Below are positions 919 to 62,923 of a DNA stretch of 64,000 nucleotides, piece after piece; the stretch's first letter is position 1, and each line of letters begins with the position of its first letter. The notes below the pieces were generated by a model. It had not been told where the DNA came from and made no database searches. It saw only the letters and a list, made by a program, of their open reading frames with translations. Location of the stretch: positions 62,001 to 126,000 of the forward strand of contig JAAFKE010000005.1 of NCBI GenBank assembly GCA_013298215.1, given 5' to 3'. The DNA comes from Cytophagales bacterium. GTDB lineage: Bacteria > Bacteroidota > Bacteroidia > Cytophagales > Spirosomataceae. The position numbers and the translations under genes are program-made.

Positions 919-3804
919 ATGAAAGTCAATCTGCACCAGCAAGAATCTTTTGAACGCCGCCACCACGGGCAAAGCCAAGCCGCCATGCAAACCATGTTGC
1001 AGACCGTTGGGGTGGCTACCTTAGACGAACTCATTGACCAGACCATACCCGCTGCCATTCGCCTGCAAGCACCCATGCACCTGCCCGAGGCCATGTCTGA
1101 GCGCCAGTTTTTGGACAACTTTAAGCAGTTGGCGGCTCAAAATCAGGTGTTTAAGTCTTTTATTGGAACGGGCTACCACGACACCATCACGCCAAATGTA
1201 ATACTGCGGAATATTCTCGAAAACCCCGCTTGGTACACCGCCTACACGCCCTACCAAGCCGAAATTGCGCAGGGACGTTTAGAAATGCTGCTCAATTTCC
1301 AGACGATGGTGATTGACTTGACTGGCATGGAGATTGCCAACGCCTCGCTCTTGGACGAATCTACGGCCGCCGCCGAAGCCATGACGATGTTCCACAGTGT
1401 GCGGGTGGCAGCCAAGAAAAATGCCGACACCTTCTTTGTGTCGGAGCTTTGCCATCCTCAAACAATAGATTTAATAAAAACCCGCGCCACTCCCCTCAAT
1501 ATCAAGGTAGTGGTTGGTTGCCACCAAAAAATAGACATCACCGATGAGTCAATCTTCGGTGCGCTGTTGCAATACCCAGCCACCAACGGCGAGGTATATG
1601 ACTACACCGACATGATTGCTGCCGCCCACGAACAAAACGTTTTTGTGATCGTGGCCGCCGACCTACTGAGCCTCACGCTCCTCAAAGCACCAGGCCAGAT
1701 GGGTGCCGATGCGGTGGTGGGTTCGGCGCAGCGTTTTGGTGTGCCAATGGGATACGGCGGCCCGCACGCGGCATTTTTTGCCACCAAAGATGCTTTTAAA
1801 CGCCAAATGCCAGGGCGTATTATTGGCGTTTCGATAGACGCGCAGGGAAACCGCGCCCTGCGAATGGCTCTTCAAACGCGCGAGCAGCACATTCGGCGCG
1901 AGAAAGCAACCTCTAATATTTGCACCGCCCAGGTGCTGCTGTCGGTTATGGCGGCGGCCTACGGCGTTTACCACGGCCCAGACGGCCTCAAAGCCATCGC
2001 CGCAAAAATCCACGGCCTGACCAAAGTGTTTGCCAACTCGATGCGTCAAATGGGTTACGATGTGCAAACCCAAACGTATTTTGACACTGTGACCGTGAAA
2101 ACCCCGTTCGTGCTCAAAGTGCGCGAACTGGCCGAGGAGCGCGGCCTCAACCTGCGCTACAATGCCAACCTTACCGTGGGCGTGTCGTTCGACGAGGGCA
2201 AGGGCTTCAACGACGTAATTGAGTTGCTCAATTTGTTTGCCGACATTACGGGCGTGAACGGCGAAATGACCATTCCGAGCAACGTCGAGGTTTCGTTTCC
2301 TGAGCGTCTGGCGCGCACCTCCGACTTTATGACCCACCCCGTTTTTAGTAGCTACCATACCGAACACGAAATGTTGCGGTATCTTAAAACATTAGAAAAC
2401 AAAGACTTATCGCTCGTTCATTCGATGATTGCGCTCGGTAGCTGCACCATGAAACTCAATGCAACCGCCGAGATGATCCCAGTGACGTGGCCAGAGTTTG
2501 GCAAAATACACCCCTTTGCCCCAGTGAGCCAGACCAAAGGCTACCAGATGTTGTTCAAAAACCTGAACGACTGGCTTTGTGAGGTAACGGGTTTTGCGGA
2601 GATGTCGTTGCAACCCAATTCGGGCGCGCAGGGCGAGTACGCGGGTCTGATGGTGATCCGCGCCTACCACGAAAGCCGGGGCGATACCCACCGCACAATT
2701 GCCCTTATTCCTTCGTCGGCACACGGCACCAACCCAGCGTCGGCGGTGATGGCGGGCATGAAAGTGGTGGTGACAAAGTGCGACGAGAACGGCAACATTG
2801 ACGTGGCCGACCTGCGGGCAAAAGCCCAACAATACAGCGACTCGCTGGCCTGTCTGATGGTCACGTACCCATCTACGCACGGTGTTTTTGAGGAATCGAT
2901 CATCGAAATTTGTGAGCTTATCCACCAGCACGGTGGGCAGGTATATATGGACGGTGCCAACATGAATGCCCAAGTGGGTCTGACCAGTCCCGCCAACATT
3001 GGGGCGGACGTTTGCCACCTGAACTTACACAAAACGTTTTGTATTCCGCACGGTGGAGGTGGGCCAGGCATGGGCCCGATCGGCGTGGCGGCGCAATTAG
3101 TGCCTTTTCTGCCAGGCCACGCGGTTATTAAAACGGGTGGCGAGCAGGCCATTACGGCCATTTCTGCCGCGCCGTGGGGGTCGGCCAGCATCCTCACCAT
3201 TTCGTATGCCTACATTGCCATGATGGGTAACGAAGGACTTACGAACGCCACCAAAATGGCTATTCTGAACGCCAACTACATAAAAGAGCGGCTCAATGGC
3301 CACTACGAGGTGCTTTACACGGGCAAAAACGGACGTTGCGCCCACGAGATGATCTTAGACTGCCGCCCTTTCAAAGCGGTTGGTGTTGAAGCCGAAGACT
3401 TGGCCAAGCGGCTGATGGACTACGGATTCCACGCACCTACGCTGTCGTTCCCAGTGGCGGGTACGCTCATGGTCGAACCCACCGAATCGGAGTCATTGGC
3501 CGAGTTAGATCGTTTTTGTGAGGTAATGATTGCGATCCGGAACGAAATTCGGGAGGTCGAAAACGGCCAGGTCGATCGTGCCGACAACGTACTGAAACAC
3601 GCGCCGCACACCGCCACCGTGGCACTTGCCGAAAGTTGGACGCGGCCATACAGCCGCCAAAAAGCTGTTTACCCGCTGGAATACTTGAAAACCAATAAGT
3701 TTTGGCCATCGGTGAGCCGCATTGACTCGGCCTACGGCGACCGCAATTTGATCTGTACCTGTTTGCCGATCGAAGAATACGCCGAAGAGGTGGCGAGTAA
3801 TTAG
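919..3804 (+). CDS. gcvP: Glycine dehydrogenase (decarboxylating), P-protein of the glycine cleavage system
   Basis: 961 aa, the usual length of the single-chain (fused P1/P2) P-protein. It decarboxylates glycine on PLP and passes the aminomethyl group to the lipoyl H-protein. The PLP-binding Lys is K705 in [18 protein letters not shown], the diagnostic motif. The N-terminal half contains the GCV_P-like segment with [14 protein letters not shown] and STAAAEAM. The frame is open back to a TTG at 883, but ATG 919 gives the normal family start ([15 protein letters not shown]), so I chose it. The other glycine cleavage genes (gcvT, gcvH) are not in the window, so this copy is unlinked, as is common in Bacteroidota. 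It is followed by the trpE control region. Confidence 0.97.
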
Positions 3805-3822
3805 AAAAAAAACGCCAAAAAG

Positions 3823-3853
3823 TTGGTCATCCAGTAGCGTAATCTTACTTTTG
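3823..3853 (+). promoter_or_regulatory. Promoter of the trp leader/trpE transcript (Bacteroidota type)
   Basis: TTG at 3823-3825, a 20-base spacer, then TACTTTTG at 3846-3853. This is a full match to the Bacteroidota -33/-7 pattern (TTTG or TTG, about 20 bases, TAnnTTTG). Transcription should start around 3857-3860, at or just before the leader ATG (3858), so the leader peptide mRNA would be leaderless or nearly so. It lies between the gcvP stop and the trp leader. Confidence 0.7.
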
Positions 3854-3857
3854 TGGA

Positions 3858-3923
3858 ATGTCGATCAAAAAATCAAACATAAATGCTTGGTGGTGGCCAC
3901 TCCCTAACACGGACAGACGGTAG
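3858..3923 (+). CDS. trpL: Tryptophan leader peptide
   Basis: A 21-codon ORF (ATG 3858, TAG 3921-3923) that starts MSIKKSNINA, then has three consecutive TGG Trp codons at 3888-3896, then PLPNTDRR. It lies between a Bacteroidota-type promoter and a strong terminator hairpin, directly upstream of trpE. This is the arrangement of a classical attenuation leader: ribosome stalling on the Trp codons reports low charged tRNA-Trp. The symbol trpL is used by analogy with enterobacteria; the peptide shares no useful similarity beyond the Trp run. There is no Shine-Dalgarno sequence, consistent with a near-leaderless start. Confidence 0.8.
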   Translation: MSIKKSNINAWWWPLPNTDRR

Positions 3924-3968
3924 GCACACGCCCAAGCGAAAGATACACAATCCCAACGCCCGCTGTTC
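3911..3968 (+). promoter_or_regulatory. Putative antiterminator pairing of the trp attenuator
   Basis: GGACAGACGG at 3911-3920 can pair with CCGCTGTTC at 3960-3968: nine pairs, one G-U, with a single bulged A at 3917. This would sequester the left arm of the terminator. The upstream strand lies 15 bases after the last Trp codon, so a ribosome stalled there leaves it free. A ribosome reaching the stop codon at 3921 would cover it and let the terminator form. I saw no convincing separate 1:2 hairpin. Pairing was found by eye, not by folding. Confidence 0.6.
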
Positions 3969-3989
3969 GAGACGAACAGCGGGTTTTTT
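3959..3989 (+). terminator. trp attenuator terminator
   Basis: Perfect 11-bp inverted repeat CCCGCTGTTCG (3959-3969) / CGAACAGCGGG (3973-3983) with a three-base loop, followed at once by TTTTTT (3984-3989). This is a canonical intrinsic terminator. It sits 35 bases after the leader peptide stop and 26 bases before the trpE ATG, so it must be bypassed for trpE to be expressed. Confidence 0.85.
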
Positions 3990-4015
3990 GTTGGTTTAAC
4001 CCTAAAAAAGCAACG

Positions 4016-5440
4016 ATGAGTGTTCCGAAACGATTTCCGATTAAGACGGCTTTCCGCAGTTTGTTGGCCGATATGCAAACGCCCGTGGGGGTTTACTTGA
4101 AGCTGCGCGACAAATTTCCGTACACCGTTATGTTGGAAAGCTCCGAATACCGTGGCACCGAACACGGTTTTAGTTGCATTGCCTGCGACCCCGTGGCATT
4201 GTTTGAACTCGACGACGACGTGGTAACGCAGCAGTTTCCCGACGGCAGCACCGAAAAATTTCCGCTCACCCACCGAAAAGACGGCGTAAATGCCCTTAAA
4301 GCCTTCACGGAGCGTTTTGAGGACGACCCCGAGGTGGTTTTTCCGTTTATGACGGGCGGGCTTTTTGGACACATGAGCTACGACTCGGTGGAGTATTTTG
4401 AGGACATTGAGATTCAGGCCAAGACCCCCGAAAACGCCATTCCGCAGATTGTGTACCGCGCCTACCGATACGTGCTCACGTTCAACCATTTTAAGGATGA
4501 AGTATATATTTTTGAACACGACTACGGCACAGCGGGCAAATCTGGCGTGACGCTCGACATGATTGAGATGATCGTGAACGCGCCAAAAACAGTAAATTTT
4601 AAGTTTAAACCAACCGACGTAGAAACCAGTAACCTCACCGACGACCAGATGTACGCGATCGTCGAAAAGTGCATTGGCCACTGTTTGCGGGGAGATGTTT
4701 TTCAGATTGTGCCCTCGCGGAGGTTCGCCCGGCCTTTTCAAGGCGACGAGTTCAATGTGTATCGAACGCTGCGCTCAATAAACCCATCGCCCTACCTATT
4801 TTTCTTTGACTTTGGGAGTTACAAAATCTTCGGGTCGTCGCCCGAGAAACAAATATTGATTAAAAATGGGCAGGCCGAAATCCACCCCATCGCGGGGACT
4901 TTTCGGCGCACCGGAGACGACGAGCAGGATGCCGAACTGGCGCGCAAGTTGGCGCAAGATCCCAAAGAAACCGCCGAACACGTGATGCTCGTCGATCTGG
5001 CCCGCAACGACCTAAGCCGCTCCTGCGATACCGTTCAGGTGGAAACGTACAAGCAAGTCCAGTTTTTTTCGCACGTTATTCACCTGGTTTCTAAGGTAAC
5101 TGGCCAGATGAAAGCGGGGACGAACCCGCTCCAATTGGTGGCCGATACTTTTCCCGCTGGAACGCTGTCGGGCGCACCCAAACACAACGCCATGACGCTC
5201 ATCGACCGCTACGAAACCACCAACCGGGGTATTTACGGCGGCGCACTGGGGCACCTTGGTTTCAACGGAGATTTTAATCATTGCATCGCCATCCGCACGT
5301 TTTTGAGCAAGAACAACACCCTGTTTTTTCAGGCGGGCATGGGTGTGGTGGCCAAGTCGAACATAGAATCTGAAATGCAGGAGGTGCACAGCAAACTGGC
5401 CGCTCTCCGAAAAGCCATCGAGGTGGCGGCAGAGTTATAA
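4016..5440 (+). CDS. trpE: Anthranilate synthase component I
   Basis: 474 aa, normal length. It makes anthranilate from chorismate with the TrpG glutaminase, the first step of tryptophan synthesis. The N-terminal regulatory part keeps an LLESx-like feedback site (MLESSEY, residues 39-45), so allosteric inhibition by Trp is expected. The chorismate-binding domain has the family signatures DVFQIVPSRRF, PIAGTFRRTG, EHVMLVDLARNDL and FPAGTLSGAPK. ATG 4016 follows the attenuator. The gene appears monocistronic: trpG, D, C, F, B and A are absent here and the next gene is an unrelated outer-membrane receptor. Separation of trpE from the rest of trp, with its own attenuator, is the notable point. Confidence 0.96.
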   Translation: MSVPKRFPIKTAFRSLLADMQTPVGVYLKLRDKFPYTVMLESSEYRGTEHGFSCIACDPVALFELDDDVVTQQFPDGSTEKFPLTHRKDGVNALKAFTERFEDDPEVVFPFMTGGLFGHMSYDSVEYFEDIEIQAKTPENAIPQIVYRAYRYVLTFNHFKDEVYIFEHDYGTAGKSGVTLDMIEMIVNAPKTVNFKFKPTDVETSNLTDDQMYAIVEKCIGHCLRGDVFQIVPSRRFARPFQGDEFNVYRTLRSINPSPYLFFFDFGSYKIFGSSPEKQILIKNGQAEIHPIAGTFRRTGDDEQDAELARKLAQDPKETAEHVMLVDLARNDLSRSCDTVQVETYKQVQFFSHVIHLVSKVTGQMKAGTNPLQLVADTFPAGTLSGAPKHNAMTLIDRYETTNRGIYGGALGHLGFNGDFNHCIAIRTFLSKNNTLFFQAGMGVVAKSNIESEMQEVHSKLAALRKAIEVAAEL

Positions 5441-61876: not shown

Positions 61877-62923
61877 ATGTTGAGTAACACAAAAATTGGC
61901 GTATTGTTGGTGTTCATGATCTTGTTCACCAGCTTTGCTACTTACTTTTGGCAAATTGCCAAAGCCCCCAACCTCCAAGTAGAAGACTCGGCCCCGCCCT
62001 TTGCGCTCTACGTGGGCACAAAAGGCACCTACAAAGACGTGTTAGACTCGCTCTACAAATACAGGGTGGTGAACGACAAGATGTCGTTTCAGTTTTTGGC
62101 CAAGTTTCTCGACCTAAAAGAACAGCTCAAACCTGGCCGCTACGTCATTAGGCCCAAGGCGGGTAACTTGGAGGTGATCCAAAAGTTGCGCAAGGGGCTG
62201 CAAGACCCCGTACCGCTGACCTTCAACAACATACGCCTAAAAGCAGATTTAATAAAACGAATTGGCAACAAATTTGCCTTTGGCCCCGCCGCACTGGGCG
62301 CACTGTTGAATGATTCGGCCACTTGCCACAAATTTGGTTTCGACACCACCACCGTGGTGAGTATGTTTTTGCCAAACACCTACGATGTCATGTGGACGAC
62401 CTCGCCCGACAAACTCCTCGGCAGGATGCACGACGAATACAAAAAGTTTTGGACTCCAGGCCGCACAGCCAAGGCCACCGCCCAGGGGCTGTCGCCAGTG
62501 CAGGTGTCGGTGATGGCATCTATTGTGGACGCTGAAACCAACCAAGAAGACGAAATGCCGCGCGTGGCGGGGGTATACCTAAACCGCCTGCGCCAAAATA
62601 TGCCCCTGCAAGCCGACCCAACGGTGATTTTTGCCACCGGCGATTTTAGCATCAAACGCGTCACGGGGCGCATTTTGGGGCTCGACTCGCCCTACAACAC
62701 CTACCGAAACACGGGGCTGCCCCCTGGCCCCATCAACCTGCCCAGCTTGGCCGCCCTCGACGCCGTGCTGAACGCCGAAAACCACAAGTACCTGTACTTT
62801 TGCGTGCGCCTTACCACCGACGGCGGCTTTACGGGCTACCACGACTTTGCCGAAAGCTACGCCGACCACCAAAACAATGCCCGACTCTACCAAGAAGCCC
62901 TCAACAAAAGAAACATCCAATAA
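61877..62923 (+). CDS. mltG: Endolytic transglycosylase MltG
   Basis: 348 aa from ATG 61877 (a GTG lies three bases earlier). One N-terminal membrane helix (IGVLLVFMILFTSFATYFW), a LysM-like linker (KFLDLKEQLKPGRYVIRPKAGNLEVIQKL), then the YceG catalytic domain with SIVDAETNQEDEMPRVAGVYLNRL. The Glu of AETNQ is at the position of the catalytic Glu in E. coli MltG, and the following LQADPTVIFATGD and SPYNTYRNTGLPPGPINLPSLAAL are diagnostic. It cleaves nascent glycan strands to set their length in peptidoglycan synthesis. The stop overlaps the start of the thioesterase gene by one base (TAATG). Confidence 0.95.
   Translation: MLSNTKIGVLLVFMILFTSFATYFWQIAKAPNLQVEDSAPPFALYVGTKGTYKDVLDSLYKYRVVNDKMSFQFLAKFLDLKEQLKPGRYVIRPKAGNLEVIQKLRKGLQDPVPLTFNNIRLKADLIKRIGNKFAFGPAALGALLNDSATCHKFGFDTTTVVSMFLPNTYDVMWTTSPDKLLGRMHDEYKKFWTPGRTAKATAQGLSPVQVSVMASIVDAETNQEDEMPRVAGVYLNRLRQNMPLQADPTVIFATGDFSIKRVTGRILGLDSPYNTYRNTGLPPGPINLPSLAALDAVLNAENHKYLYFCVRLTTDGGFTGYHDFAESYADHQNNARLYQEALNKRNIQ

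Follow-up and report, generated by a model that had tools for sequence, protein, structure and literature searches.

In the window, by which we mean the whole 64,000-nt stretch of DNA analysed here (positions 62001–126000 of contig C45 in a 3.55-Mb genome), trpE is very probably controlled by ribosome-mediated attenuation of transcription in response to charged tRNA-Trp; we infer this function from a Trp leader, an antiterminator and a terminator that are conserved and covary in front of trpE. These findings support the reading as a tryptophan attenuator that had been put forward in the preliminary description. Attenuators of this kind are already known in Bacteroidota, which makes the present one less surprising. 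Less expected, and not raised in that description, are two features: the leader mRNA is probably leaderless, and the switch has been kept on a trpE that lost its neighbour trpG. The attenuator is real and its logic conventional; what merits an experiment is the start, which is probably leaderless, and the recurrence of this state.

Parts of the attenuator

Re-reading of the sequence confirmed the parts previously described upstream of trpE. The features, all on the + strand, are the following (with the basis of each in brackets).

3823–3825, +, TTG element of the promoter, "-33", at -35 to -33 if +1 is 3858 (sequence)
3846–3853, +, -7 box TACTTTTG (TAnnTTTG), ending 4 nt 5′ of the leader ATG (sequence; F. 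psychrophilum box geometry as given in PMC9723704)
3858, +, predicted leaderless transcription start, on the first base of the leader AUG (position of the box)
3858–3923, +, leader ORF MSIKKSNINAWWWPLPNTDRR with TAG stop at 3921–3923 (sequence)
3885–3890, +, strand 1 of the protector helix, GCTTGG (folding; p 0.060 in the window sequence)
3888–3896, +, three consecutive Trp codons, proposed stalling site (sequence, leader alignment)
3910–3920, +, strand 2, the 5′ arm of the antiterminator, ending directly 5′ of the leader stop codon (covariation, folding)
3932–3937, +, strand 2b, CCAAGC, partner of strand 1 (folding)
3958–3984, +, intrinsic terminator hairpin, with the T run extending to 3989 (folding, terminator scan, covariation)
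3959–3969, +, strand 3, common to antiterminator and terminator (folding, covariation)
4016–5440, +, trpE, anthranilate synthase component I, without an adjoining trpG (sequence, NCBIfam, neighbour scan)

The proposed Bacteroidota promoter is present, with TTG at 3823–3825, which we take to be the -33 element, and TACTTTTG (TAnnTTTG) at 3846–3853. The leader ORF indeed comprises 21 codons from the ATG at 3858, and its three consecutive Trp codons are codons 11–13. The terminator had been described as a perfect 11-bp hairpin followed by six T, and this agrees with Watson–Crick pairing throughout 3959–3969/3973–3983 and with T at 3984–3989; if the closing G·U is added, the hairpin has 12 pairs, 8 of them G–C. 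The antiterminator strand and its one bulge (A3917) were likewise found as described, but the number of pairs is 10, including one G·U, and not 9; the duplex of 3910–3920 with 3960–3969 has an energy of -12.8 kcal/mol.

In the proposed mechanism, RNA polymerase would begin the transcript at the first base of the leader start codon, and a ribosome would load at the 5′ end. If Trp-tRNA is scarce, this ribosome would stall at codons 11–13, open the protector helix (3885–3890/3932–3937) and free 3910–3920 to pair with 3960–3969; the antiterminator, once formed, would block the terminator and permit transcription of trpE. If Trp is plentiful, the ribosome would reach the stop codon at 3921 and cover 3910–3920, and the terminator would form. 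The transcription start, the leaderless translation, the stalling and the regulatory outcome are predictions of this scheme.

The best NCBIfam model for trpE is TIGR00564, anthranilate synthase component I, with 414.4 bits, which lies below the strict cut-off of 517.7 for this model. Its closest TrpE relatives are those of Runella, with 75–76% identity for the named Runella loci and 77% for one further genome. On the same strand, gcvP (model TIGR00461) ends at 3804, 54 nt upstream of the leader ATG. A terminator scan of 3700–4120 revealed none between gcvP and trpE besides the attenuator hairpin, and trpE may be transcribed from gcvP as well.

Folding of the leader

Folding of 3858–3990, suggested as a check in the preliminary description, yielded -43.0 kcal/mol with a z-score of -3.88. 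The same segment minus the right arm of the terminator folds in an ordinary way (z 0.33), hence the folding excess is due to the terminator. Compared with shuffled sequences, the antiterminator of the window reached p 0.014 (1000 shuffles) and its protector helix p 0.060, missing 0.05. The helix energies in the window are -15.5 (1:2), -12.8 (2:3) and -22.4 kcal/mol (3:4). With a ribosome placed at the Trp codons, the computed fold of the free stretch is the antiterminator, before strand 4 is made, and in both folds with the complete hairpin and free upstream strands the terminator wins. The latter outcome fits an attenuator, but equally a plain terminator. The generic terminator scan alone was not significant (1 found vs 0.8 expected). 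The pattern TTTGNNNNATGN{12,42}TGGTGGTGG had a single match in the 3.55-Mb genome, at the leader of the window trpE. The decisive support comes from conservation in relatives.

Conservation and covariation in relatives

The family set combined 80 named loci, the best-ranking out of 342, with 28 loci obtained by searching 39 relatives, these 28 being drawn from the 30 best matches, with weaker order-level matches such as G024, G034 and G036 left out. L002 and L003 (not trpE) and L032 (no upstream sequence) were dropped, and the set is redundant as some contigs occur in both collections. An ATG-started Trp-Trp leader ORF was found upstream of trpE in 104 of the 108 relatives' loci (105/109 with the window), and it was accompanied by a terminator, located with our own terminator finder, in 98 of them (99/109 including the window); among the named loci these numbers were 80/80 and 77/80. 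By this rule L022, L026, L027 and L031 (4/108) lack such an ORF, and L022 still has MIWWWHSSHLG.

For the covariation analysis we used alignment A1 of 54 non-redundant leaders, window included, from which 44 near-identical leaders, 6 leaders without a found terminator and L029 were left out; the ORF of L029 is apparently accidental, and this locus is still counted in the 105 and the 99. In the terminator, 96.0% of 647 cells were paired, 99 of them double-changed (compensatory), and in the antiterminator 91.5% of 412 cells, 20 of them double-changed; none of 500 shuffles was as high in either case. When the antiterminator register was shifted by 1–3 columns, pairing amounted to only 26–51%, a control that favours structures picked from the consensus, as the antiterminator was. 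Two of the five antiterminator measures failed against shuffles, namely both-side-changed pairs (231/500) and pair types (420/500). We also calculated z-scores for the antiterminator from whole-segment shuffles; these were weak for many loci, and column counts were used instead. The row of the window is out of register in A1, therefore its own antiterminator was assessed by direct folding.

The commonest strand 2 is approximately GRUGAACA, versus CUGUUCAUC in and after the left arm of the terminator, and in several clades strand 2 overlaps the leader stop codon. The protector helix joins the stretch before and at the Trp codons to a segment 3′ of strand 2; its register varies by clade, and it was therefore tested one sequence at a time. 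It surpassed shuffles (p ≤ 0.05) in 39 of the 54 leaders and did not in 15, window included. The comparison of trpE upstream regions from related genomes, which had been proposed earlier, thus revealed a retained Trp leader and terminator, with covariation in both terminator and antiterminator. Taken by kind, the elements found are a tandem-Trp leader ORF, an intrinsic terminator and a mutually exclusive, covarying antiterminator, the last surpassing shuffles in 3 of 5 measures.

Several loci of the family set showed additional features. In L104 (JAAFJP010000035.1), a tRNA-Trp (CCA) gene is located at 1253–1326, between the attenuator terminator and trpE; this arrangement was seen only in this one MAG contig among the 108 relatives' loci scanned, and the attenuator of L104 could also control the tRNA that it senses. 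Directly upstream of the Trp leader, L020–L024 (minus strand) possess a tRNA-Pro (CGG) gene (~3099–3213), at distances of 14, 33, 71, 15 and 14 nt from the first in-frame ATG. No promoter box was detected within 50 nt in the four scored loci of this group, hence the 5′ end of the leader might stem from tRNA processing. In L088, the attenuator is separated from trpE by roughly seven tandem repeats of a unit close to CGCTCAGCCACCGATATGTCGGATC.

Distribution across the phylum

From 148 genomes drawn evenly across the phylum, 90 had a TrpE match at 1e-80 and the other 58 were left out; 88 new trpE starts were examined, as the window's own and that of G035 were already within the family set. A short ORF with WW or WxW was present upstream of 78/88 trpE genes (4 on the opposite strand; shuffles: mean 4.0, highest 9), and three clustered Trp codons within a short ORF were present upstream of 67/88 (0 on the opposite strand; shuffles: mean 0.1). 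The WW leader was absent from all sampled trpE genes of the family codes f26 (4), f32 (3), f44 (2), f42 (1) and f45 (1), and also from some members of other family codes in this sample. The Trp leader is widespread, with gaps, among trpE genes of this type.

Promoter box and predicted leaderless start

To our knowledge, Shine-Dalgarno sequences are largely absent in Bacteroidota. For Flavobacterium psychrophilum, PMC9723704 places the TAnnTTTG box at -12 to -5. In the window the box ends at 3853, and with this Flavobacterium geometry transcription would start at 3858, on the first base of the leader AUG. The leader mRNA is therefore likely to be leaderless, with transcription starting at the AUG, as judged from a box geometry that comes from another group than this one.

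A spacing of exactly 4 nt between box and leader ATG occurs in 22 of the 105 family leaders, window included (21 relatives' rows), and in 19 rows after removal of contigs seen twice. These leaders belong to Runella, Lacihabitans, Jiulongibacter and some others; in L017, L018 and L105 the box reads TAnnTTTA. The other 83 leaders do not have the box at 4 nt, and none in the family set has its best-scoring box at 5–13 nt, the remaining ones having it at 14 nt or more, or none within 60 nt. A quick TrpE tree with 87 rows, which carries long-branch warnings, implies that the leaderless state changed five times, and starred branches force four of these changes. In the phylum sample, a box (at least 5 of 6) was found at 4–9 nt in 39 of 71 WW leaders vs 5.6% of 2698 control windows, and six of these 39 have it at exactly 4 nt. 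For comparison, 40 window genes with crude start calls had a box of at least 5 of 6 at 4–9 nt in 4 cases, a perfect one in none, and in one case a 5-of-6 box with the exact 4-nt spacing. With the spacing fixed, a pattern search also yielded leaders of this form upstream of trpE in other families (9 of 30 loci kept: L132, L146, L147 and L151–L156); as the spacing was imposed by the query, these were not counted as evidence for it.

Alternatively, the same attenuator could lie on a transcript with an ordinary 5′ UTR that starts at a different promoter, for instance by read-through from gcvP, the box at 4 nt being there by chance. The end of gcvP 54 nt upstream on the same strand and the 83/105 family leaders lacking a box at 4 nt fit this explanation, but we regard it as unlikely because the 4-nt spacing recurs in 22 rows (19 deduplicated) with none at 5–13 nt, and because among the 40 window genes a perfect box at 4–9 nt occurs 0 times and a 5-of-6 box at 4 nt once. 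Two further explanations concern the attenuator itself. TRAP-like and T-box systems control trp genes in Firmicutes, and a Trp-binding protein or a T-box could in principle replace the ribosome here; this is most improbable, as the window has no Rfam match at cut-off, no T-box up to E 10 at the leader and only two (G/T)AG triplets in 3858–4015, compared with the 11 repeats given for the B. subtilis trp leader in PMC4027176. Equally implausible is a terminator that merely ends the gcvP transcript next to an incidental short ORF: such a terminator after gcvP would be ordinary, and the terminator scan alone is not significant, but a Trp-Trp leader accompanies trpE in 104/108 relatives' loci, the triple-Trp type precedes 67/88 phylum trpE genes vs 0 on the opposite strand, and the antiterminator covaries.

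With regard to the leaderless start of a ribosome-controlled attenuator, there is about an even chance that translation of the leader peptide from the extreme 5′ end of the message (AUG at +1 or no more than ~5 nt from it) has been adopted repeatedly by Trp attenuators of Bacteroidota. If true, a near-zero 5′ UTR would let the first ribosome load at once and stay in step with RNA polymerase, and leaderless initiation could be studied in a natural setting in which ribosome–polymerase timing is the function. The published share of leaderless mRNAs is 5.5% in a Flavobacterium species, and a share has also been given for thetaiotaomicron (PMC7366714). No description of leaderless Trp leaders in Bacteroidota was found in the text consulted from the open-access literature.

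A detached trpE that kept its attenuator

In most loci trpG follows trpE on the same strand, namely in 94/108 family loci and in 28/28 phylum loci with full flanks. The 14 family loci without a downstream trpG are L033–L040, L004, L025, L026, L027, L031 and L044, among which L004 and L037 carry little weight, being one contig in two collections with 526 nt downstream only. In the window and the Runella loci, trpE has lost its neighbour trpG yet retained its switch. For marine bacteria it has been argued that trp genes, once detached, no longer need attenuation (PMC2395257); the window trpE exemplifies a gene that has left its neighbours and kept its control.

The trp genes of this genome are scattered over the contigs C45, C65 and C5, with trpE, trpG-trpD, trpF-trpB, trpC and trpA not forming one operon; the genes other than trpE were named by NCBIfam, with trpF below its cut-off. 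Searches upstream of trpG-trpD, of trpF and trpB, of trpC and of trpA (1464 nt) yielded no short ORF with at least two Trp codons; in this genome, control of this type thus seems limited to the first enzyme of the pathway. A genome-wide scan with a His-codon pattern gave 49 hits vs 45 in the reversed control and was dropped.

Comparison with known systems

The preliminary description had been unsure how widely such attenuation is described in Bacteroidota. This doubt is answered by the Rfam family RF01692 (Bacteroid-trp), "Bacteroidete tryptophan peptide leader RNA" (Weinberg 2010, PMC2864571), and by hints that leader peptides attenuate amino-acid operons in F. psychrophilum (PMC9723704). RF01692 shares with the window the phylum, the target and a Trp leader, and the window gave no match to it (gathering cut-off 49 bits). 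Among 60 relatives' loci, 10 matched at cut-off (batches 1/20, 1/20 and 8/20). L102 of the family set passes narrowly with 49.5 bits, which suggests that the window leader is a divergent cousin of this family. The matches differ in their best box, which lies 16–30 nt before the ATG in 8/10, at 5 nt in 2/10 and at 4 nt in none. With 10/60 loci recognized, this widespread amino-acid sensor is mostly missed by current Rfam models.

The Escherichia coli trp attenuator (RF00513, Trp_leader) has the same logic and the same order of parts as the window, in which 3882–3992 scored 20.2 bits (E 0.11), below the 41-bit gathering cut-off. In E. coli, trpL is preceded by a 5′ UTR containing a Shine-Dalgarno site and stands before a whole operon, in contrast to the predicted leaderless start and the lone trpE of the window. 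In Sinorhizobium meliloti, trpE is fused to trpG. According to PMC7298713, the leader RNA of S. meliloti trpLE(G) begins with the ATG of trpL, only trpE(G) of the three trp operons is attenuated, and an sRNA and the peptide act in trans; S. meliloti thus resembles what is predicted for the window, with a leaderless Trp leader and control of trpE(G) alone, although it belongs to another phylum. Streptomyces lividans trpL1-trpE, as described in PMC8079986, has an 18-residue WWW leader reported to be leaderless, a monocistronic trpE and a termination thought to be Rho-independent; it resembles the window in the WWW leader, the lone trpE and the leaderless start predicted for the window, and differs in belonging to the Actinobacteria. 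Leaderless Trp leaders have thus been reported from Sinorhizobium and Streptomyces, and if Trp attenuators of Bacteroidota have indeed adopted such a start repeatedly, a near-zero 5′ UTR would, together with these two, represent a convergent design rule.
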